Positions 21,504-30,867 of a stretch of DNA of 42,772 nt are shown in pieces; positions within the stretch are counted from its first letter, which is position 1; each line of letters opens with the position of its first letter. The DNA comes from an uncultured bacterium. GTDB lineage: Bacteria > Bacillota > Clostridia > Oscillospirales > Oscillospiraceae. Location: contig CANRXB010000021.1 in NCBI GenBank assembly GCA_947643715.1, positions 1 through 42,772 of the forward strand, given 5' to 3'. A program made the translations under genes and the position numbers. The notes beneath the pieces are model-generated. The model did not search any database, was not told the origin of the DNA, and saw nothing but the letters and a program-made list of their open reading frames with translations.

Positions 21504-22010
21504 ATGCTGGAGACGAAGGACCTCGTTTTGGACAAAGCGAAGCAAGAGGACTGGGAGGGGATGTACCGCAACGTCTGGTCCTGCCCGGAAGCCGCGAGAT
21601 ACATGCAGTGGAGCGTGACCGGCAGCGAAGCGGACGCCAGGGAGCGGATGCGCAGGACCATCCAGTTCCAAAAGACCCACGACACCTATCTGGTGTATTG
21701 GAAGGCGACGGGCGAGCCCATCGGCTTCGCGGGGGTGGAGGAGCTTTCGCCCACCGTCTGGGGGGAAGCGGGCATCTGCCTGGGGCCGGCCTATGTGGGG
21801 AAGGGACTGGGCAGGCAGATCCTCCACTGTCTCATACGATATGCCAAGGGGCTGGGAGCGAAGCGGTTCGTCTGCTCCGCCCGGGAGGGGAACCAGGCGT
21901 CTCGGGCGCTGATCGCGTCGCTGGGATCCACCCTGTTCGACGCTGAGGAGAGGATCGATCCCCGGGACGGCAGTCCCTATACCTACCTTAGATACGAGCT
22001 GGACCTGTGA
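21504..22010 (+). CDS. GNAT-family N-acetyltransferase (RimJ/RimL type)
   Basis: Protein of 168 aa. The acetyl-CoA-binding strand-turn GPAYVGKGLGRQILHCLI (about residues 91-110) is the GNAT motif A with its G-x-G. The fold matches short-chain acetyltransferases acting on protein N-termini or small amines. It lies 12 nt after the ABC exporter and may share its transcript; a resistance-type partnership with the exporter is possible but unproven. Confidence 0.83.
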   Translation: MLETKDLVLDKAKQEDWEGMYRNVWSCPEAARYMQWSVTGSEADARERMRRTIQFQKTHDTYLVYWKATGEPIGFAGVEELSPTVWGEAGICLGPAYVGKGLGRQILHCLIRYAKGLGAKRFVCSAREGNQASRALIASLGSTLFDAEERIDPRDGSPYTYLRYELDL

Positions 22011-22018
22011 GAACTGCT

Positions 22019-22052
22019 CAGGGCGGGCCTGTCCTTCGGACGGCCCGCCCTG
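22019..22052 (+). terminator. terminator-like hairpin after the acetyltransferase gene
   Basis: CAGGGCGGGCC pairs with GGCCCGCCCTG, with an inner GTCC/GGAC. No T-run; the A-run after it reads toward the next promoter. Confidence 0.6.
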
Positions 22053-22068
22053 GATGCGCAAAAAAACC

Positions 22069-22097
22069 TTGCATTTCTCCTGGGATGAGTATATAAT
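22069..22097 (+). promoter_or_regulatory. sigma-A promoter of the aromatic operon
   Basis: TTGCAT, 17-nt spacer, perfect TATAAT. Predicted start near 22104, giving a 231-nt leader before the DAHP synthase gene. Confidence 0.85.
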
Positions 22098-22129
22098 GAC
22101 CACCATCCAAGGATCAGCGAGGTGATCCC

Positions 22130-22225
22130 ATGTCTCCGTTCGCCGTCTACGACGCCACGTTCGCCTTTGGCTGGACCCGATCTGCAGTGTCCGGCTGTTT
22201 TGTCGTGGAGAACTGCGGCGTGTGA
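22130..22225 (+). CDS. aromatic-rich leader peptide of the aromatic operon
   Basis: A 31-codon frame that starts MSPFAVYDATFAFGWTRSAV. It has Phe at 4, 11, 13 and 24, Tyr at 7 and Trp at 15: six aromatic residues of 31, five of them within codons 4-15. The GAGGTGAT ribosome site lies partly in the loop of a small hairpin (GGATCA 22111-22116 with TGATCC 22123-22128). The frame ends UGA 22223-22225, shortly before an attenuator-like hairpin and 109 nt ahead of the DAHP synthase gene. It looks like a ribosome-sensing leader of the trpL/pheL kind. No homology claim is made. Confidence 0.62.
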   Translation: MSPFAVYDATFAFGWTRSAVSGCFVVENCGV

Positions 22226-22263
22226 GTGAGGGGGCATACGATCCCTGCCTGAAGCTGTGTTTT

Positions 22264-22312
22264 AGGGAGCTCATAGGCTGCTTGCCGCGGCCTGGGGGCT
22301 CCCTTTCAATTT
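22264..22312 (+). terminator. attenuator-like hairpin in front of the DAHP synthase gene
   Basis: AGGGAGC (22264-22270) pairs with GCTCCCT (22298-22304); above an internal loop a second stem pairs AGGCTGC (22275-22281) with GCGGCCT (22287-22293). It is followed by TTCAATTT, a weak U-tract. Its upper part can instead pair with the end of the leader peptide frame (22213-22220 with 22283-22290). Confidence 0.55.
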
Positions 22313-22334
22313 CCATCGAAGGAGAAGAGTTATC

Positions 22335-23357
22335 ATGGTCATCGTGATGAAGCCCGGCGTCAGCCAGGAGCATATCCATGCCCTCGTCGCCCGATTGGAG
22401 CACGACCACGGCGTTTGCGTGGGCGTGACCAACGGCGTGGGCTGTTCCATCCTGGGGCTGGTGGGGGACACCGCCCATATCGATATGGACAAGCTGTCCA
22501 TGGACGACGATGTGGAGCGGGTCATGCGGGTGCAGGAGCCCTATAAGAAAGCCAATCGCAAGTTCCATCCGGAGGACACCGTGGTGGACGTGTCCGGCGT
22601 GCCCGTCGGCGGCGGGGACAGGTTCACCGTCATCGCCGGGCCGTGCTCGGTGGAGAGCGGGGAGCAGATCGTGGGCGTGGCCCAAGAGGTGAAGCAGGCG
22701 GGGGCCGCCCTGCTCCGGGGGGGCGCATTCAAGCCCCGCACCTCTCCCTATTCCTTCCAGGGGATGGGCGCGGACGGGCTGGACCTGCTGCTGGAGGCGC
22801 GGGCCAGCTCGGGCCTTCCCATCGTGTCCGAGATCATGGCCCCCCGGGACTGCGGGCTGTTCGAGGAAAAGGTGGATCTGGTCCAGATCGGCGCCCGGAA
22901 CATGCAGAACTTCGACTTGCTCAAAGAGGTGGGCAAGCTGTCCAAGCCTGTGCTGCTCAAGCGCGGGCTGTCCAACACCTATGAGGAGTGGATCATGTCG
23001 GCGGAATATATCATGGCCGCGGGCAATGAGGACGTGATCTTGTGCGAGCGTGGGGTGCGCACCTTCGAGACCTATACCCGCAACACCCTGGATCTGTCCG
23101 CCATCCCCGCCATCCGGCGCATGAGCCATCTGCCCATCGTGGTCGATCCCTCCCATGCCGCGGGGATGTACTGGATGGTGGAGCCGCTGGCCATGGCCGC
23201 CGCCGCCGTGGGTGCGGACGGGCTGATGGTGGAGGTGCACAACGATCCCCCCCACGCCAAATGCGACGGGGCCCAGTCCCTCACCCCGGAGAAGTTCCGG
23301 CACCTCATGGGGAAACTTGGCCCGCTCATCGAGCTGATGGGCAAGACCCTGGCCTGA
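22335..23357 (+). CDS. aroF: 3-deoxy-7-phosphoheptulonate (DAHP) synthase, type I beta
   Basis: Protein of 340 aa. An N-terminal ferredoxin-like regulatory domain (about residues 1-70) precedes the TIM barrel, which contains AGPCSVES, GGAFKPRTSPYSFQG, IGARNMQNF and VDPSHAAG. This is the Thermotoga/Bacillus class, feedback-sensitive through the extra domain; there is no fused chorismate mutase. It joins PEP and erythrose 4-phosphate, the first step of the shikimate pathway. Gene follows GAAGGAG and is first after the leader; aroB follows 50 nt later. Symbol follows the common usage for this class. Confidence 0.95.
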   Translation: MVIVMKPGVSQEHIHALVARLEHDHGVCVGVTNGVGCSILGLVGDTAHIDMDKLSMDDDVERVMRVQEPYKKANRKFHPEDTVVDVSGVPVGGGDRFTVIAGPCSVESGEQIVGVAQEVKQAGAALLRGGAFKPRTSPYSFQGMGADGLDLLLEARASSGLPIVSEIMAPRDCGLFEEKVDLVQIGARNMQNFDLLKEVGKLSKPVLLKRGLSNTYEEWIMSAEYIMAAGNEDVILCERGVRTFETYTRNTLDLSAIPAIRRMSHLPIVVDPSHAAGMYWMVEPLAMAAAAVGADGLMVEVHNDPPHAKCDGAQSLTPEKFRHLMGKLGPLIELMGKTLA

Positions 23358-23407: not shown

Positions 23408-24505
23408 ATGAAAAGACTCGAGGTGGCCCTGCCGGGCCGGGGATACGACATTTTGATCGAGCGGGGCCTGCTGGCCCAGGCCGGGGAGCGTATCCGGGCG
23501 GTCCTGCCCCGTGCCGCCAAGGTGGCCGTGGTCAGCGACAGCACGGTGGCCCCCCTGTATGGCCGGAGCGTGCTGGACAGCCTGGCCCGCGCCGGGTACG
23601 AGGCGGCGCTGTTCACCGTCCCGGCGGGGGAGGGGAGCAAGAACGCCGCGCAGCTCTCCGAGCTGTGGGAGGGTTTCATGGCGTTCGGCCTCACCCGCAC
23701 CGACGCTGTGGTCGCCCTGGGGGGCGGCGTGGTGGGGGATCTGGCGGGCTTCGCCGCAGCCACCATCCTCCGGGGGGTGGCCTTCGTCCAGATCCCCACC
23801 ACTTTGCTGGCCCAGGTGGATTCCTCTGTGGGAGGCAAGGTGGCCGTGGATCTGAAGGCGGGAAAGAACCTGGCCGGAGCGTTCTATCAGCCGAGGCTGG
23901 TGCTCATGGATCCCGACGTGCTGGATACCCTGCCCCTGCCCGTGTTCATGGCGGGGATGGCGGAGGTGGTCAAGTACGGCTGCATCTGGGACGAAGGCTT
24001 TTTCGACTTTCTCACCGCCCGGCCCTCCCGCCAGGGATCGATGGCAGATATCGAACACATCTTGTATACTTGCTGTGATATAAAACGCCAGGTGGTCATA
24101 GAGGACGAGCTGGACACCGGGCTGCGGATGATCCTGAACTTTGGACACACGCTGGGCCACGCCTACGAGCTGGCGGGACATTATGTGGAATGGAGCCATG
24201 GCGAGGCGGTAGCGGCGGGCATGTGCGCCGCGGCCCAGCTCGGCGTGGGGCTGGGGGTCACGCCGCCGGACGTGCCGGGACGCATCGCCCGCGCCTGCGC
24301 GGCCTTGGGCCTGCCCACCCACATCTCCTGCGGCCTGGAGGACTGCTCCGCCGCGATCGGCCTGGACAAGAAGAGCGCGGGATCGGACATCACCCTGATC
24401 TTGCTGGACGCGATCGGCCACGCCGTCCCCTGCAAGATGCCACGGGAGCGTCTGTTGGCGCAGGTGGCGGCCCTGCCGGGCCATGGAAAGGAGTCGGCGA
24501 CATGA
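23408..24505 (+). CDS. aroB: 3-dehydroquinate synthase
   Basis: Protein of 365 aa. NAD-binding GGGVVGDLAGFAAAT, the PTTLLAQVDSSVGGK segment and the metal-ligand NFGHTLGHAYE region are all present. It cyclises DAHP to 3-dehydroquinate using NAD+ and a divalent metal. Start ATG 23408, 7 nt after AAGGAGG. Stop overlaps aroA start by ATGA. Confidence 0.96.
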   Translation: MKRLEVALPGRGYDILIERGLLAQAGERIRAVLPRAAKVAVVSDSTVAPLYGRSVLDSLARAGYEAALFTVPAGEGSKNAAQLSELWEGFMAFGLTRTDAVVALGGGVVGDLAGFAAATILRGVAFVQIPTTLLAQVDSSVGGKVAVDLKAGKNLAGAFYQPRLVLMDPDVLDTLPLPVFMAGMAEVVKYGCIWDEGFFDFLTARPSRQGSMADIEHILYTCCDIKRQVVIEDELDTGLRMILNFGHTLGHAYELAGHYVEWSHGEAVAAGMCAAAQLGVGLGVTPPDVPGRIARACAALGLPTHISCGLEDCSAAIGLDKKSAGSDITLILLDAIGHAVPCKMPRERLLAQVAALPGHGKESAT

Positions 24506-25737
24506 ACCTCACCATCGCTCCGGCCGGATTGGCCGGGAGCATCACGCCGCCCCCCTCCAAATCCCAGGCCCACAGGCTGATCATCGCCGCTGCCTTGGCG
24601 CAGGGACGCAGCGTGCTGTCCAATGTGGCTGCCTCCCAGGACGTGGAGGCCACCTTGGGCTGTATGGAGCAGCTCGGGGCGGAGCATGTATGCTCAGGCG
24701 GCGAGCTCACGGTCCAGGGCATGGAGGCCGGCGCCATGTCGCCCCTGCGCCGGATGGCCTTTCCCCGGCTGGATTGCGGGGAGAGCGGTTCCACCCTGCG
24801 CTTCCTGATTCCGGTGGCCCTGGCCGTGCGGGGCGGCGGCATCTTCTCGGGGCGCGGGCGGCTGATGGAGCGGCCCCAGGAGCCCTATTTCCGCCTCTTC
24901 CATGAAAAGGGCATCTCCTATGAGCGGAAGGACGGCAAGCTCACCGTCCAGGGTCTGCTGGCCCCGGGGCGGTATGCCCTGCCGGGCGGCGTGTCCAGCC
25001 AGTTCGCCACCGGCCTGCTGTTCGCCCTGCCCCTGCTGGACGGGGATTCGGAGATCGTGCTCACCTCTGCTTTGGAGAGCCGGGGCTATGTGGACATGAC
25101 CCTGGCCGTGCTGGAGGGGGCCGGTATCCAGGTGGAGGAGCGGGAGGACGGCTTTTTCGTCCCCGGCGGACAGCGCTACCGGCCCCGGTCCCTCGCTGTG
25201 GAGGCCGACTGGTCCCAGGCCGCGTTCTGGTACGCCGCGAAGAGCATGGGCAGTGCGGTGGAGGTGGAGGGGATGGATCCCGGCTCCACCCAAGGGGACA
25301 AGATCGTGATGGACTACCTCGCGGCGCTGTCCGGGCCGGGGGACGTGGAGCTGGACGTTTCCGGCTGCCCCGATCTGGCGCCCCCCCTGGCCGCCGCAGC
25401 GGCGCTGCGGGCCGGACGTACCACCCGCCTCAGCCATGCCGCCCGGCTGCGCATCAAGGAGAGCGACCGGCTGGCCTCCATCACCCAAGCGCTCGGCGCG
25501 CTCGGTGCGGACGTGACCGAAGGGGCGGACGATCTCGTCATCCGGGGCCGGGAGAGGCTGGCCGGCGGCGCGGCGGTGGACAGCGCCAACGACCACCGCA
25601 TCGCCATGATGGCGGCGATCGCCGCCACCCGGTGCGAAGCGCCGGTGACGGTCATGGGGGCCGGATGCGTGGCGAAATCCTATCCCGGCTTTTGGGACGA
25701 CTACCGGGCGCTGGGTGGAGAGATCCGAGAGATATGA
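24502..25737 (+). CDS. aroA: 3-phosphoshikimate 1-carboxyvinyltransferase (EPSP synthase)
   Basis: Protein of 411 aa. It has PPPSKSQAHRLIIAAALA at the N-terminus, ESGSTLRFLIP, VSSQFATGLLFALPLL, LRIKESDRLASI and NDHRIAMM near the end, the set expected for EPSP synthase. It transfers the enolpyruvyl group of PEP to shikimate-3-phosphate. Start is coupled to aroB (ATGA). The PEP-site sequence is ordinary enough that glyphosate sensitivity class cannot be judged. Confidence 0.95.
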   Translation: MNLTIAPAGLAGSITPPPSKSQAHRLIIAAALAQGRSVLSNVAASQDVEATLGCMEQLGAEHVCSGGELTVQGMEAGAMSPLRRMAFPRLDCGESGSTLRFLIPVALAVRGGGIFSGRGRLMERPQEPYFRLFHEKGISYERKDGKLTVQGLLAPGRYALPGGVSSQFATGLLFALPLLDGDSEIVLTSALESRGYVDMTLAVLEGAGIQVEEREDGFFVPGGQRYRPRSLAVEADWSQAAFWYAAKSMGSAVEVEGMDPGSTQGDKIVMDYLAALSGPGDVELDVSGCPDLAPPLAAAAALRAGRTTRLSHAARLRIKESDRLASITQALGALGADVTEGADDLVIRGRERLAGGAAVDSANDHRIAMMAAIAATRCEAPVTVMGAGCVAKSYPGFWDDYRALGGEIREI

Positions 25738-25789
25738 CCGTGCATGTGCCCGGGCGGCGTCCGCCGCTGGGCGGACGAGGAGGGAGCTC

Positions 25790-26317
25790 ATGGAGACCAT
25801 CGGATTGACGATCCCCGGGCAGGAGCATCTGGATCAGGTGTGGGGATACCGCCAGGACTGCTGTGGAGCGGACAGCTCCATGGACGGCTGCGGCCCCCTG
25901 CGGTTCAACACGAGCCCGGAGCAGTGGCTGGAGGACATCCGGCGGTATGCCGATCCGGACACCGTCCCGGAGGGCAAGGTGCAGGCCACCCAGTTCCTGG
26001 CCGTGCGGCAGCCGGACGGCCGGGTGGTGGGCATGATACAGGTGAGGCACTATTTCAACGAGTACCTGGAAAAGTACGCGGGGCACATCGGCTACTCCGT
26101 CCGGCCCAGTGAGCGGCGCAAGGGATACGCCAAGGAGATGCTCCGGCTCGCTCTGGGCTTTTGCAGGCAGATCGGCCTGGAGCGGGTGCTGGTCTCCTGT
26201 AAGCCGGACAACGAGGGGAGCCGCCGCACCATACTGGCCAACGGGGGCGTGTACGAGCGTACCGTCCATGTGCCGGGCGAAGGCATCGATTTGGAGCGGT
26301 ATTGGATCGCGCTGTGA
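25790..26317 (+). CDS. GNAT-family acetyltransferase inside the aromatic operon
   Basis: Protein of 175 aa. Motif A is SVRPSERRKGYAKEMLRLAL (about residues 104-123), with the family's basic Q/R-x-x-G/A pattern; a motif B-like SCKPDNEGSRRTI follows. Start ATG 25790 after GAGGAGGGA. It sits between aroA and aroC without its own terminator or promoter and is probably read with the operon. No known role in aromatic synthesis; substrate unknown. Confidence 0.83.
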   Translation: METIGLTIPGQEHLDQVWGYRQDCCGADSSMDGCGPLRFNTSPEQWLEDIRRYADPDTVPEGKVQATQFLAVRQPDGRVVGMIQVRHYFNEYLEKYAGHIGYSVRPSERRKGYAKEMLRLALGFCRQIGLERVLVSCKPDNEGSRRTILANGGVYERTVHVPGEGIDLERYWIAL

Positions 26318-26360: not shown

Positions 26361-27407
26361 ATGAGATATTCCATTTTCGGCGAGTCCCACGGCCCTGCCA
26401 TCGGGGTGGTGCTGGAGGGCGTGCCCGCAGGGCTGGAGCTGGACCTGGAGGCCATCCGTTTCGACCTGGCCCGCCGGGCCCCGGGGAAGGACGCGGTGTC
26501 CACCGCCCGGAAGGAGGCGGACGAGCCCCGTATCCTTTCCGGCGTGTTCCAGGGCAGGACCACCGGAGCGCCGTTGTGCGCCATGATCGAGAACACGGAC
26601 ACGCGCTCCGGGGACTACGAGCGCACCAAGGATCTGGCCCGCCCCGGCCACGCCGACTACGCCGCCCACGTGCGGTACGGCGGGGCCAACGACTATCGGG
26701 GCGGCGGACATTTCTCCGGGCGGCTCACCGCGCCGCTGGTCTTTGCCGGAGGGGTGGCAAAGCAGCTCCTGGCCCGGGAAGGCGTATGGGTGGGGGCCCA
26801 TATCAGCGCTGTCTACGGCATCAACGACGACCCCCTGGAGGACTGGGAGGGACTGGAGGCCGTGGCCTCCAAGGCGTTCCCGGTGCTGGACGACCAGGCG
26901 GGGGAGGAGATGCGAAAGGCCATCCTGGAGGCGAAGGACGAGCAGGATTCGGTGGGCGGTTCCATCGAATGCGGGGTGTTCGGGCTGCCCGCCGGGTTGG
27001 GGGCCCCCGATCTGGGGCAGAATGCGGAGGGCATCTTCTCCCGGCACCTGTTCGCGGTCCCGGCGGTGAAGGCGGTGGCCTTCGGCGCGGGGACGGCCTT
27101 CGCCCTCATGCGGGGCTCCGAGGCCAACGACCCGCTGTATGTGGACGAGGACGGATCGGTCAAAGGGGAGCAGAACTGCGCCGGAGGGATCAACGGCGGC
27201 ATCACCAACGGGATGCCGCTAGTGTTCGAGGCGACGTTCCGCCCCACGCCCTCCATCGCCCGGCAGCAGTTCACCATCGACATGGCGAAGATGGAGAACG
27301 CCGTGCTGGAGCTCCAGGGCCGTCACGATCCCTGTGTGGTCCCCCGGGCGGTGCCGGTGGTGGAGGCCGCAGCGGCGCTGGCGGCCTGCGAGCTGATGGG
27401 GATATGA
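26361..27407 (+). CDS. aroC: chorismate synthase
   Basis: Protein of 348 aa starting MRYSIFGESHGP, the conserved N-terminus; AAGGAG lies 10 nt before ATG 26361. An in-frame ATG at 26337 would add eight residues not seen in the family. SGDYERTKDLARPGHADY and RYGGANDYRGGGHFSGR are the FMN-binding marks. It needs reduced FMN to convert EPSP to chorismate. Confidence 0.95.
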   Translation: MRYSIFGESHGPAIGVVLEGVPAGLELDLEAIRFDLARRAPGKDAVSTARKEADEPRILSGVFQGRTTGAPLCAMIENTDTRSGDYERTKDLARPGHADYAAHVRYGGANDYRGGGHFSGRLTAPLVFAGGVAKQLLAREGVWVGAHISAVYGINDDPLEDWEGLEAVASKAFPVLDDQAGEEMRKAILEAKDEQDSVGGSIECGVFGLPAGLGAPDLGQNAEGIFSRHLFAVPAVKAVAFGAGTAFALMRGSEANDPLYVDEDGSVKGEQNCAGGINGGITNGMPLVFEATFRPTPSIARQQFTIDMAKMENAVLELQGRHDPCVVPRAVPVVEAAAALAACELMGI

Positions 27408-27445: not shown

Positions 27446-27934
27446 ATGGATCTGAGAACGATGCGTCAGACAGACGAACAGGTGGTCATCCTCCCCGGAG
27501 CGGCGGTGGTGGGCGACGTCACCCTGGGCCCGGACTGCTCGGTGTGGTTCAACGCCGTCCTCCGGGGGGACGGCGAGCCCATCGTGGCCGGCAGGGGCTG
27601 CAATATCCAGGATTGCGCCGTGCTCCATTCGGATAAGTCGCCCACCGTACTGGGGGACTGGGTGTCCGTGGGGCATGGGGCCATCGTCCACGGCGCGCAA
27701 GTGGGGGACCGCTCCATCATCGGCATGGGGTCCACCCTGCTGGACGGGGCGAAGATCGGGAAGGACTGTTTGGTGGGCGCGGGGGCGCTGGTCACAGGCA
27801 AGATGGACGCCCCCGACGGCTCTATGATCCTGGGCGATCCCGCCCGTGTGGTCCGGCCGCTCACCGATGAGGAGATCGCCGGGCTCCGGAAGAACGCCGA
27901 GCATTATGCCCGGCTGAAGGAGATGTATCGCTGA
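27446..27934 (+). CDS. gamma-carbonic-anhydrase-like hexapeptide protein
   Basis: Protein of 162 aa. A left-handed beta helix of hexapeptide repeats runs from about residue 15 to 130. The family's three metal histidines are recognisable (VLHSD and VGHGAIVHG). Such YrdA/PaaY-type proteins bind Zn or Fe and may hydrate CO2 or hydrolyse small thioesters. It ends TGATG, overlapping pheA by 1 nt. Its place in the aromatic operon has no known reason. Confidence 0.85.
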   Translation: MDLRTMRQTDEQVVILPGAAVVGDVTLGPDCSVWFNAVLRGDGEPIVAGRGCNIQDCAVLHSDKSPTVLGDWVSVGHGAIVHGAQVGDRSIIGMGSTLLDGAKIGKDCLVGAGALVTGKMDAPDGSMILGDPARVVRPLTDEEIAGLRKNAEHYARLKEMYR

Positions 27935-29112
27935 TGGACGAGCTGCAGGATCTTCGCCGGGACATCGACGCCATCGACCGGGAGCTGGTGGAGCTGTTCC
28001 GCCGGCGCATGGACGTGACCCGGCGGGTAGGAGAGCACAAGCGGGCGCGGGGGATCCCCGTTTTGGACCAGGAGCGCGAACGCCAGGTGCTGCGCGACAA
28101 AGCGGAGCTGGCGGGGGAGGCGCTGCGTCCCGCCGTCATCACCCTGTTCCAGACGGTGATGGCCCTGTCCCGGCGGCAGCAGCGGGACCTGATGGGCCAG
28201 GGCCAGGAGAATCCCGGTGTGCGCCGCTGGCAGGACGCACGGGCCAACGCCCGCCGGCCTGTCGCCGCGCCCCGGGTGGTGTACCAGGGCGTGCCTGGGG
28301 CGTACAGCGAGCAGGCGGCGCTGGATCTCTTCGGCCAGGGCGCGCGCACCGCTGGACTGGAGCAGTTCGAGGACTGCTTCCTGGCGCTGCGGGAGGGCAG
28401 CGCGGACTATGCCGTGGTGCCCATCGAGAACAGCTCCACCGGGGCCATCCGGCAGATCTACGACCTGCTCACCCAATATGAGTGTTATGTGGTGGGCGAG
28501 ACCACAGTGCGGGTGGAGCACTGCCTCATGGCCCCCAAAGGGGCCACGCTGGACACGATCACCCACGTCTATTCCCATGAGCAGGGCCTGTTCCAATGTG
28601 AACGCTACCTCAACGCCCATCCCCAGTGGGAGCAGGTGCCTCAGGCGGACACCGCCGGGTCCGCCCGGATGGTGGCCGAGTGCGGAGATATCACAAAGGC
28701 GGCGGTCTGCGCCGAGCGGGCCGCGGAGCTGTATGGACTCACCGTCCTGGCCAGGGCGATCAATCACAACACCTGCAACACCACTCGGTTCGTGGTGGTG
28801 TCCCCCCGGCTGGAGCTGCGCCCCGGGGCGGACAAGATCAGCACTCTGTTCGTCCTGCCCCATGAGGCGGGCTCCCTCCACGAAGTGCTCACCGTGTTCG
28901 CCGTGCATGGGCTGAACATGGTGAAGCTGGAGTCCCGGCCCCTGCCCGAACGGAGCTGGCAGTATATGTTCTTCCTGGAATTCACCGGCGCCCCCGGCGA
29001 CCCGGCGGTGGACGACGCGCTGCACGAGCTGGCCCAGACCACCGGAGAGTTCCGGGTGCTGGGGTGGTTCGTGTCCAACCTGGACCAAGGGGGGGAGGCG
29101 GCATGTCCCTGA
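27934..29112 (+). CDS. pheA: bifunctional chorismate mutase / prephenate dehydratase
   Basis: Protein of 392 aa. Residues 1-85 are an AroQ-type chorismate mutase (DLRRDIDAIDRELVELF). Prephenate dehydratase spans about 112-290, with IENSSTG (165-169 region) and the catalytic NTTRF (282-286). An ACT domain follows, with GSLHEVL and the Phe-binding ESRP (333-336). It makes phenylpyruvate from chorismate and should be inhibited by Phe through the ACT domain. Confidence 0.95.
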   Translation: MDELQDLRRDIDAIDRELVELFRRRMDVTRRVGEHKRARGIPVLDQERERQVLRDKAELAGEALRPAVITLFQTVMALSRRQQRDLMGQGQENPGVRRWQDARANARRPVAAPRVVYQGVPGAYSEQAALDLFGQGARTAGLEQFEDCFLALREGSADYAVVPIENSSTGAIRQIYDLLTQYECYVVGETTVRVEHCLMAPKGATLDTITHVYSHEQGLFQCERYLNAHPQWEQVPQADTAGSARMVAECGDITKAAVCAERAAELYGLTVLARAINHNTCNTTRFVVVSPRLELRPGADKISTLFVLPHEAGSLHEVLTVFAVHGLNMVKLESRPLPERSWQYMFFLEFTGAPGDPAVDDALHELAQTTGEFRVLGWFVSNLDQGGEAACP

Positions 29113-29612
29113 GCATCGTGCTCATCGGGATGATGGGCAGCGGGAAGACCACGGTGGGCAAGCTGCTGGCGCGGCGCCACGGCCTGCCCCTGGCGGACAC
29201 CGACCAGCTCGTCCAGGAGCGGGCGGGCCTTTCCGTCCCGGACATATTCGCCCAGTGGGGCGAGGCCCGCTTCCGGGCGTTGGAGCTGGCGGTGTGCCAG
29301 GAGCTGTCCGGGCGGGGCGGGCTGATCGCCGCGTGCGGCGGCGGCCTTCCCATGCAGGAGAGGGCCATTTCCGCGCTGAAGGAGAACGGCCTGGTGTTTT
29401 GGCTGGACCGGGATCCGGGCGAGACCTATGACAGTTTGGACATATCTGGCCGTCCGCTGGCTCAGGCAGGCCGGGAGGACTTCATCCGGCGGTATGCCGC
29501 GCGCGCCCCGGTGTACCGGCGCTGGGCGGACCACATCGTCCCCGCCGGGAAGAGCCCCCGGGAGGCCCAGGCGCTGATCTCTACCATCTATATGGAGGCG
29601 TTGCATCCATGA
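29103..29612 (+). CDS. aroK: shikimate kinase
   Basis: Protein of 169 aa. P-loop GMMGSGKTTVGKLLA (about 9-23), substrate-binding DTD near residue 34, and the central CGGGLPM. It phosphorylates shikimate with ATP. Start ATG 29103 lies inside the end of pheA (10-nt overlap) after GGGGGGAGGCGGC. Length is normal. Confidence 0.94.
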   Translation: MSLSIVLIGMMGSGKTTVGKLLARRHGLPLADTDQLVQERAGLSVPDIFAQWGEARFRALELAVCQELSGRGGLIAACGGGLPMQERAISALKENGLVFWLDRDPGETYDSLDISGRPLAQAGREDFIRRYAARAPVYRRWADHIVPAGKSPREAQALISTIYMEALHP

Positions 29613-30040
29613 AGTTCCTGATCATCAACGGCCCCAACCTGAACCTGCTGGGCAAACGGGAGCCGGACATCTATGGCAGTTTGAGCTATGAGCGGCTGTG
29701 CGCCCTGATCGAAGGACATGCCCTGGCCCACGGCTCCACCGCCTGCTGCTTCCAGTCCAACCACGAGGGGGCCATCATCGACGCGATCCATGCCGCCGAC
29801 GGCGTGTATGACGCGATCGTCATCAACCCGGGGGCATATACCCATTACAGCTATGCCATCCTGGATGCGCTGAAAGCGGTGGACGTGCCCGCGTATGAGG
29901 TCCACCTCAGCCACATCGACCAACGGGAGCCCTTCCGGGCGGTGTCCGTCACCGCCCCCGCCTGTGTGGGGCAGATCTACGGGCACGGTCATCAGGGCTA
30001 CCTCATGGCCATGGACTACTTTTTGGAGGGCGGGAGATGA
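29609..30040 (+). CDS. aroQ: 3-dehydroquinate dehydratase, type II
   Basis: Protein of 143 aa. INGPNLNLLGKREPDIYG at the N-terminus, SNHEGAIID, NPGAYTHYS and VHLSHIDQREPFR are the type II signature set, including the catalytic Tyr and His region. The enzyme is a dodecamer that dehydrates 3-dehydroquinate. Coupled to aroK and aroE by ATGA overlaps on both sides. Confidence 0.95.
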   Translation: MKFLIINGPNLNLLGKREPDIYGSLSYERLCALIEGHALAHGSTACCFQSNHEGAIIDAIHAADGVYDAIVINPGAYTHYSYAILDALKAVDVPAYEVHLSHIDQREPFRAVSVTAPACVGQIYGHGHQGYLMAMDYFLEGGR

Positions 30041-30867
30041 AGCTCCAGGTCATCGGCGACCCGGTGCTGCACTCCAAGTCCCCGGTCATCCACGGGGCCA
30101 TGCTGGAGGCGCTGGGGCTGGACGTCCCTTACGCCGCCCGGGTGGTCCGCAGTGGAGAGCTGCCCCAGTACCTGGCATGGGCCAGGGAGAACGGCGTCAC
30201 CGGATTCAACGCCACCATGCCCCACAAGGAGGCGCTGATCGAGCTGCTGGACGGCGTCGTCGGCGATGCGGCCCTATTTGGCGCGGTGAACACCGTCTGT
30301 CTGCGGGAGGGCAGGTGGATCGGCTACAACACCGACGGCGGCGGGGCGCTGGCCGCGCTGGAAGGGGCGGGCCTGTGGCCCGCCGGGACCGTGGTGGTGC
30401 TGGGGGCGGGGGGAGCCGCCAAGGCGGTGGCCCTCGAGCTGGCCCAGGCGGGGGCGGAGCGGGTGTGGGTGTGCAACCGCACCCTGTCCCGGGCCGAGGA
30501 GCTGTGCCGCAGGGATCCCCGGGGAGTGCTGGTCCCGCAGGGGGCCTCTCCCGATACGCTGTCCCGGCTGTGCCGGGACGCGGAGCTGCTGGTGAACTGC
30601 ACCGATCTGGGGATGGCGGGCTGTCCCCATCAGTTCGAGGACTTCTCCTTCCTGGACGCCCTCCCGCCGGAGGCCGGCGTGTTCGACCTCATCTACCATC
30701 CCGCCGAGACGCAGCTCTTGGCCCGGGCCCGCCGCCGGGGGCTGCGGGGGATCGGCGGCCTGCCCATGCTGGTGGGCCAGGCGGTGCTGGCCCTGGAGCT
30801 CTTCCTGGACCGGCCCTTGGACCGGGGGAGGATGGCCGCCGTTGCTTCCGCCGCTCTGGGGACGTGA
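30037..30867 (+). CDS. aroE: shikimate dehydrogenase
   Basis: Protein of 276 aa. HSKSPVIHGAMLEALG, NATMPHKEAL with the catalytic Lys, the NTDGGG segment and the NADP loop VVLGAGGAAKAVALEL (about 127-142) are all present. It reduces 3-dehydroshikimate to shikimate with NADPH. Start overlaps aroQ by ATGA. Confidence 0.95.
   Translation: MKLQVIGDPVLHSKSPVIHGAMLEALGLDVPYAARVVRSGELPQYLAWARENGVTGFNATMPHKEALIELLDGVVGDAALFGAVNTVCLREGRWIGYNTDGGGALAALEGAGLWPAGTVVVLGAGGAAKAVALELAQAGAERVWVCNRTLSRAEELCRRDPRGVLVPQGASPDTLSRLCRDAELLVNCTDLGMAGCPHQFEDFSFLDALPPEAGVFDLIYHPAETQLLARARRRGLRGIGGLPMLVGQAVLALELFLDRPLDRGRMAAVASAALGT

Follow-up and report, generated by a model that had tools for sequence, protein, structure and literature searches.

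The pheL and trpL leaders of enterobacteria carry runs of the regulatory codon; the translating ribosome is the sensor, the antiterminator is a pairing of RNA strands 2 and 3, and the terminator is a pairing of strands 3 and 4. They control pheA or the trp genes. T-box leaders bind tRNA directly and respond to its charging. An aroR leader of the aroF operon was reportedly described in Corynebacterium glutamicum by Neshat in 2014.

In the portions of the published accounts drawn on here, aroR encodes a Phe-Tyr-Phe leader upstream of an aroF operon that includes DAHP synthase, with expression enhanced by stalling under Phe limitation (PMC11802643, PMC4046766). The uORFC-13-1 motif upstream of aroF in Acholeplasma, with 24 representatives from Acholeplasma and environmental sequences, is presented in the corresponding part of its source as a proposed attenuator (PMC8632094). 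For the Firmicutes, attenuation by His leader peptides has been proposed for hisS/hisZ and his operons, again according to the sections used here (PMC2965389, PMC9413887).

The locus described below lies in a 42,772-nt stretch of DNA (the window) belonging to a 2.63-Mb genome in 93 contigs (96% complete). Its predicted strand logic and ribosome sensor are those of pheL and trpL, but it precedes DAHP synthase and the shikimate pathway. As in aroR, an aromatic leader peptide stands before a DAHP synthase operon; aroR, from an Actinobacterium, has three aromatic codons in a row, whereas here they are spread over codons 4–24 with an RNA hairpin in the frame, and the excerpted accounts of aroR describe no Tyr-specific twin, whereas this genome has a Tyr-rich leader before its second isozyme. 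Compared by description, and within what the source excerpt gives, uORFC-13-1 resembles it in having a promoter, a short frame containing one or more Phe codons, a terminator, and DAHP synthase. The His leaders, as excerpted, are likewise proposed leader-peptide attenuators in Firmicutes, but with histidine codons and genes rather than aromatic ones. A first-pass annotation of the window, noting that aromatic genes of Firmicutes are better known for TRAP or T-box control, had thought a mixed Phe/Tyr/Trp leader over a whole shikimate operon new. Given the His examples, a leader peptide is in itself no novelty in Firmicutes, and aromatic ones over DAHP synthase have been reported in Corynebacterium and proposed in Acholeplasma, as far as the excerpts go; searches of the open-access literature yielded no aromatic leader peptide for Clostridia.

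Sequences and Searches

DNA upstream of DAHP synthase genes was gathered by searches of the genus, the family, and a genome collection, the last represented by the best 80 of 587 matches. Among those 80, the closest relatives of the window's DAHP synthase are titled Oscillospiraceae, Clostridiales, or uncultured bacteria, with Flavonifractor and Pseudoflavonifractor ranking lower. Removal of short and identical stretches left 106 distinct upstream sequences, those from the best 80 of 587 included. L041, L103, and L127 (less than 200 nt upstream) and L114 (match beginning inside the gene) were dropped, and L040, which contains N, was left out of the terminator count.

Of the 85 distinct sequences with a DAHP synthase identity of at least 69%, 75 have a leader match to a profile HMM derived from the unambiguous cases; since the HMM was trained on members of the set, this figure describes spread and is no blind test. 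Counts given below for 75 loci refer to a leader set defined by HMM E ≤ 0.02 (74 of at least 69% identity, plus L115), which was chosen for having the leader, so that its counts do not measure absence. A blind detector (Shine-Dalgarno site, at least five and 20% aromatic residues, terminator) was positive in 60 of the 106 gathered sequences, in 11 of 60 regions from across the phylum, and in 5 of 600 shuffles of the latter sample. The 60 phylum-wide regions were chosen by hand from the best-scoring listed matches, and in five the alignment opens on a codon other than a start codon. With a looser detector, which had no shuffle control of its own, an aromatic leader and terminator were found in 15 of 21 sequences of less than 69% identity; Clostridium, Pelosinus, and Christensenella are represented in these 15, among the matches listed.

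Ten of the 85 orthologous upstream sequences have no HMM leader match. L067, a near relative without leader and terminator, has a TTGCAT...TATGCT promoter directly 5' of DAHP synthase; L069 and L070 keep the terminator, with a different upstream sequence; L051, L053, L054, and L106 have a different Phe/Tyr-rich frame in its place; and in L046, L108, and L109 (the last with only ~240 nt upstream) no leader was seen.

Gene Cluster, Promoter, and Leader Frame

A same-strand cluster begins at 22335 with DAHP synthase, followed by aroB, aroA, a GNAT-like frame, aroC, a gamma-carbonic-anhydrase-like frame, a pheA-type gene, shikimate kinase, aroQ, and aroE (Table 1), which are presumably read as one transcript. 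The GNAT-like frame (25715-26317) was named by eye, and the gamma-carbonic-anhydrase-like frame (27446-27934) scores below cut-off. The placing of DAHP synthase after leader and hairpin in the first-pass annotation is borne out by two NCBIfam models. Between the preceding gene and the promoter is a strong GC-rich inverted repeat (22019-22052), with no U-run where either strand would require one.

Table 1. Features of the leader region and the gene cluster downstream, in window coordinates.
Feature	Position	Strand	Basis
Sigma-70-type promoter, TTGCAT-17-TATAAT	22069..22097	+	sequence; conserved in relatives
Shine-Dalgarno site of leader, GAGGTGA	22119..22125	+	sequence; similar motif in 71/75 leaders
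Aromatic leader peptide, 31 codons, stop UGA 22223-22225	22130..22225	+	sequence; leader HMM E 2.6e-7
Hairpin within leader frame, ~ codons 13-23	22168..22197 (22168-22176 with 22189-22197)	+	MFE
Strand 2 of antiterminator: last leader codons, stop, two bases	22215..22227	+	-18.6 kcal/mol with 22269-22281; genus register
Terminator hairpin	22264..22304	+	-30.9 kcal/mol
Strand 3: 5' arm of terminator (GCUCAUAGGCUGC)	22269..22281	+	partner permutation 0/20000
Weak U-tract UUCAAUUUCCA	22305..22315	+	5 T in 8
DAHP synthase, first structural gene	22335..23357	+	NCBIfam NF006421 E 4e-144 and TIGR01361 E 1e-116, both above cut-off
aroB, 3-dehydroquinate synthase	23429..24505 (start approximate)	+	TIGR01357 above cut-off
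aroA, 3-phosphoshikimate 1-carboxyvinyltransferase	24493..25737 (start approximate)	+	TIGR01356 above cut-off
aroC, chorismate synthase	26361..27407 (start approximate)	+	NF003793 and TIGR00033 above cut-off
pheA-type chorismate mutase / prephenate dehydratase	27934..29112	+	best NCBIfam: prephenate dehydratase E 1e-66 and chorismate mutase domains, below curated cut-offs
Shikimate kinase, aroK-like	29103..29612 (start approximate)	+	NF010552 E 7e-28, below curated cut-off
aroQ, type II 3-dehydroquinate dehydratase	29609..30040	+	TIGR01088 above cut-off
aroE, shikimate dehydrogenase	30037..30867	+	TIGR00507 above cut-off

The promoter proposed at first pass is present (TTGCAT at 22069-22074, a 17-nt spacer, TATAAT at 22092-22097). 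In our own scan, which required at least 9 of 12 with a half point for TTG, this type of promoter is present 5' of the leader in 67 of 73 relatives and in 40 of 730 shuffles; in the relatives its median distance from the leader ATG is 31 nt. A generic scan for promoters and terminators detected neither here; it missed the promoter because its rule is four of six per hexamer, and TTGCAT scores three.

The leader frame translates as MSPFAVYDATFAFGWTRSAVSGCFVVENCGV, with the four Phe, one Tyr, and one Trp that had been counted in its 31 codons. Five of these six lie within codons 4–15, as had been stated; Phe24 falls outside. ATG is the start codon in each of the 75 leaders of the set. The leader of the window itself is a diverged one and lacks two residues of the family motif. 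Among the 75 loci, the +1 frame contains a stop in 56 and the +2 frame in 37, the leader frame being open by selection. Substitution ratios were also tried as proof of translation and do not discriminate: pN/pS values of 0.89 and 0.79 for the leader frame compare with 1.19 and 1.04 for +1 and 0.68 and 0.77 for +2. To judge by Shine-Dalgarno site, start, stop, and length, rather than by these ratios, the frame is probably translated. In Flavonifractor-like loci such as L088 and L092, inspection by eye shows the Shine-Dalgarno region of the leader, UUGUGAGG, to be complementary to CCUCACAA, which lies a few codons downstream of the start, so that a hairpin may partly hide the leader start there.

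Terminator and Proposed Antiterminator

The hairpin and short U-tract of the first-pass annotation were both found, the tract being weak (Table 1). A terminator lies 3' of the leader in all 75 N-free loci (L035 corrected by hand), and a stricter definition (E ≤ -12, at least four T) retains 74 of the 75, vs. 21 of 75 shuffled intergenic stretches. The fold of the whole leader region is moderately better than those of shuffles (z -2.01).

Across the groups compared, the end of the leader and its stop region are complementary to the 5' arm of the terminator, which holds CUCAU or a near form in nearly all loci. In the window, 22215-22219 and 22221-22227 pair with 22277-22281 and 22269-22275, respectively, for a total of 12 pairs and -18.6 kcal/mol. 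Within the window's genus (L057), CGCGGCGCGUGAG pairs with CUCAUGGACCGCG, and in the next clade (L021) GGACGCUGUGAG with CUCAUUGACACGUCC; in many genomes of the Flavonifractor type, inspection by eye shows the bases that follow the stop (GAUGAAAUGAAUGRG-like) pairing with CUCAUUGAUUUCAUC and reaching the terminator loop. The antiterminator first proposed for the window thus had the correct strand 2 (leader end and stop), and a partner that should be replaced by the lower 5' arm. Its eight pairs, between 22213-22220 and 22283-22290, do exist as complementarity (seven pairs and -13.4 kcal/mol by RNAduplex), but do not stand up as a functional helix, with a probability of 0.00 in every modelled state in which the partner has been transcribed.

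Strand 2 covaries with the terminator 5' arm and loop: the partners belong together. Strand 3 partners were permuted among 74 usable loci. With the entire 5' arm and the loop included, 0 of 20000 permutations attained the native mean duplex energy at each of three redundancy levels (62, 45, and 24 representatives). With only the part beyond CUCAU, the corresponding numbers were 0, 0, and 531 of 20000; a control permutation with the terminator 3' arm was not significant (1428 of 20000, 44 representatives). Single-locus duplex energies are weaker evidence than the permutation, with z against shuffles below -2 in 30 of 75 loci and below -1 in 57 of 75. In the comparison of relatives that the first-pass annotation had recommended, then, frame, terminator, covarying 2:3 pairing, and aromatic codons are all retained, and neither frame nor pairing has the lack of conservation that it thought would count against an attenuator.

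Eight distant relatives picked by eye (L116, L121, L123, L124, L125, L128, L132, L135) have CUCAUU or CUCGUU after the leader, in the terminator 5' arm, and in six of these eight hand-picked sequences AAUGAG occurs at most 48 nt before the leader's end. This recurrence suggests one old device.

T-boxes are also in use in this genome, with matches at 13 places (four above cut-off), some of them 5' of tRNA synthetase genes and none on the window's contig; in one distant relative, Faecalitalea cylindroides, a T-box (L126, 2728-2964) precedes DAHP synthase, putting the same gene under another tRNA-sensing system. It is nevertheless extremely unlikely that the window's leader region is itself a T-box, or another metabolite- or tRNA-binding riboswitch, with the short frame incidental. 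The T-box family (RF00230) has no match in the leader region, Rfam at gathering thresholds matches nothing in the window and gives no relevant match at E ≤ 1 in 22000-22400, and Shine-Dalgarno site, frame, and stop are conserved in 75 loci, with strand 2 located at the stop. Eight of the 13 T-boxes were inspected: ilvB, leuA, glyS, and hisS (then aspS) lie within about 100 nt downstream, and tyrS, ileS, valS, and pheS in the same direction at 461-700 nt, with another open frame without family between T-box and pheS. From these downstream genes, the T-boxes would appear to act on tRNA synthetase genes, those for Tyr and Phe perhaps included, whereas leader peptides precede both DAHP synthase operons.

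Folding Models

To model the switch, transcripts were ended within the terminator loop, and each aromatic codon in turn, or the stop, was masked as if by a ribosome. For the window, the probability of the 2:3 pairing is 0.09 without a ribosome and 0.01 with one at the stop, where the covering of strand 2 is partly a property of the mask itself. With a stalled ribosome it is 1.00 at F4, 1.00 at Y7, 0.89 at F11, 0.26 at F13, 0.90 at W15, and 0.99 at F24. The proposal that a stall frees the pairing and a ribosome at the stop covers it is therefore reproduced in the model, where the window's antiterminator forms at five of six aromatic codons and not at the stop. In transcripts 5-14 nt longer, the F4 and Y7 stalls keep a probability of at least 0.57, and stalls from F11 to F24 give 0.06-0.52.

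Over the 75 loci, the mean probability of the 2:3 pairing is 0.41 in free transcripts, 0.13 with a ribosome at the stop, and 0.60 with a stalled one; in 67 loci the stalled mean is higher than the value at the stop. Contrary to the model, 32 loci form the antiterminator without a ribosome. The model has the antiterminator exclusive of the terminator and covered at the stop, though 10 of the 75 loci deviate, keeping the antiterminator (probability above 0.5) with a ribosome there.

In the full transcript at equilibrium, the terminator has a probability of 0.94-0.98 with any mask: once the 3' arm is complete, it is favored regardless of the ribosome. Full-length equilibrium folding was accordingly set aside as a test of the switch, being uninformative on kinetics. 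Folding with and without a ribosome mask, as the first-pass annotation had suggested, thus shows a switch in truncated transcripts and none at full length; since the terminator always wins there, the switch must be kinetic, with the 2:3 pairing forming first and persisting.

A hairpin that always forms at equilibrium, and loci without switch behavior in the model, would also be expected of a plain terminator or processing site, with the leader as a translated or untranslated spacer and no response to amino acids. Such a site would not account for the covariation of strand 2 with the terminator 5' arm and loop, for the retention of the aromatic codons, or for the parallel Tyr-rich leaders before a tyrA-linked isozyme described below, and we consider it very unlikely.

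Amino Acids Probably Sensed and the In-Frame Hairpin

Phe makes up 15.2% of residues in the 75 leaders, Tyr 4.0%, and Trp 3.0%, and the operon includes a gene of the Phe branch (pheA-type). The leader would be mainly a Phe sensor. The description of it as mixed Phe/Tyr/Trp is correct in that all three are present, but not as to their weight. It is doubtful that the leader senses Trp as an end product, because the Trp codon is within an RNA-constrained hairpin and because the anthranilate synthase N-terminal domain (PF04715, trpE) was not found in the window's genome by a search that was positive in 14 of 14 control genomes. The domain has a match at E ≤ 0.001 in 31 of 120 family genomes, 30 of them above cut-off.

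The hairpin in question is formed within the frame itself (Table 1), with the conserved Trp codon (22172-22174) in its 5' strand. In all 51 distinct leader segments the region folds better than the median synonymous recoding, and in 27 of the 51 it is in the best 5% of 300 recodings; the window's own hairpin is not outstanding, 87 of 300 recodings being equally good. Its loop is CGAUUU in most relatives, synonymous positions included, and CGAUCU in the window. Since these segments fold better than their synonymous recodings, the core W-x-R-F-x-x-x-G appears to owe its conservation at least in part to the RNA, which may serve there as a pause hairpin or binding site.

Some leader peptides, such as TnaC, arrest the ribosome in response to a free ligand. 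Non-aromatic residues are also conserved across the present leader family, and a W-x-R-F-x-x-x-G-[FY]-F motif that stalled the ribosome on a free ligand, rather than through scarcity of charged tRNA, would account for them. This is highly improbable given that the core coincides with the RNA hairpin just described, shows no clear excess of constraint at the protein level (pN/pS 1.36 and 0.79), and belongs to a motif of which the window's leader is without two residues.

A Second DAHP Synthase Operon

The genome has a second DAHP synthase (G000:C48 9011-11200; loci L136, L164), 61% identical to the first, with a prephenate dehydrogenase gene 3' of it (tyrA-type; best matches below cut-offs, E 1e-48). 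It is preceded by the leader MDCRNTVYGYHRYHDSGFSSCL and a terminator. In genomes with both isozymes, 20 of 26 upstream regions of the paralogue have a Tyr-rich leader, followed in all 20 by a terminator; from one group of 20 regions, 6 enter this count, and the other 14, inspected by eye, belong to other DAHP synthases. In five of the 26 (L238, L242, L247, L250, L257) no Tyr-type leader was seen, and in L251 a stop breaks it, within sequence that contains N. Tyr makes up 21.4% of residues in these leaders, Phe 6.8%, and Trp 1.7%. No partner for a strand 2 was found among the Tyr-type leaders by permutation with either the 5' arm (8451 of 20000) or the 3' arm (3973 of 20000).

In E. coli, DAHP synthase is controlled by TyrR and by isozyme-specific regulation. 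We lean toward a view in which the shikimate pathway of Clostridia is under an old two-channel control, passed on mainly by vertical descent, with a Phe-rich leader for the isozyme of the aro and pheA genes and a Tyr-rich one for the isozyme linked to tyrA. Ribosome attenuation would then take the part that these two play in E. coli, and T-boxes serving tRNA synthetases would act alongside it in the same genome.

Proposed Mechanism

The reading best supported by conserved frame, promoter, terminator, 2:3 pairing, and folding switch remains the ribosome-sensing attenuator of the first-pass annotation: very likely, a classic ribosome-mediated transcription attenuator stands over the DAHP synthase, aroB, aroA, aroC, pheA, aroK, aroQ, and aroE operon. 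RNA polymerase would start at about 22104, as placed from the promoter, and a ribosome would translate the Phe-rich leader. When charged tRNA-Phe, and probably also tRNA-Tyr, is scarce, the ribosome would stall at codons 4–24, leaving strand 2 free to pair with strand 3, and the operon would be transcribed. With charged tRNA in good supply, the ribosome would go on to the stop and cover strand 2, the terminator would fold, and transcription would end. In the absence of translation, upstream structure would tend to hold strand 2, at least in the window, and the terminator would form as well.

Implications

The device belongs to the known trpL/pheL kind, of which there are few descriptions from this group of gut bacteria, and it very probably switches off the genes of the operon by leader attenuation when aromatic amino acids are plentiful. 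The two-isozyme leader arrangement is unusual, and is the part worth following. The constrained in-frame hairpin is a reminder that a "conserved small protein" can owe its conservation to its RNA. If the attenuator reading is true, leader-peptide attenuation, beside T-box or TRAP, governs this pathway in Firmicutes; with a Phe and a Tyr leader side by side, two specificities of one device could be compared within one cell; and there would be a testable account of how the flow into aromatic amino acids is controlled in a large group of gut Clostridia, namely Flavonifractor, Pseudoflavonifractor, and their relatives.
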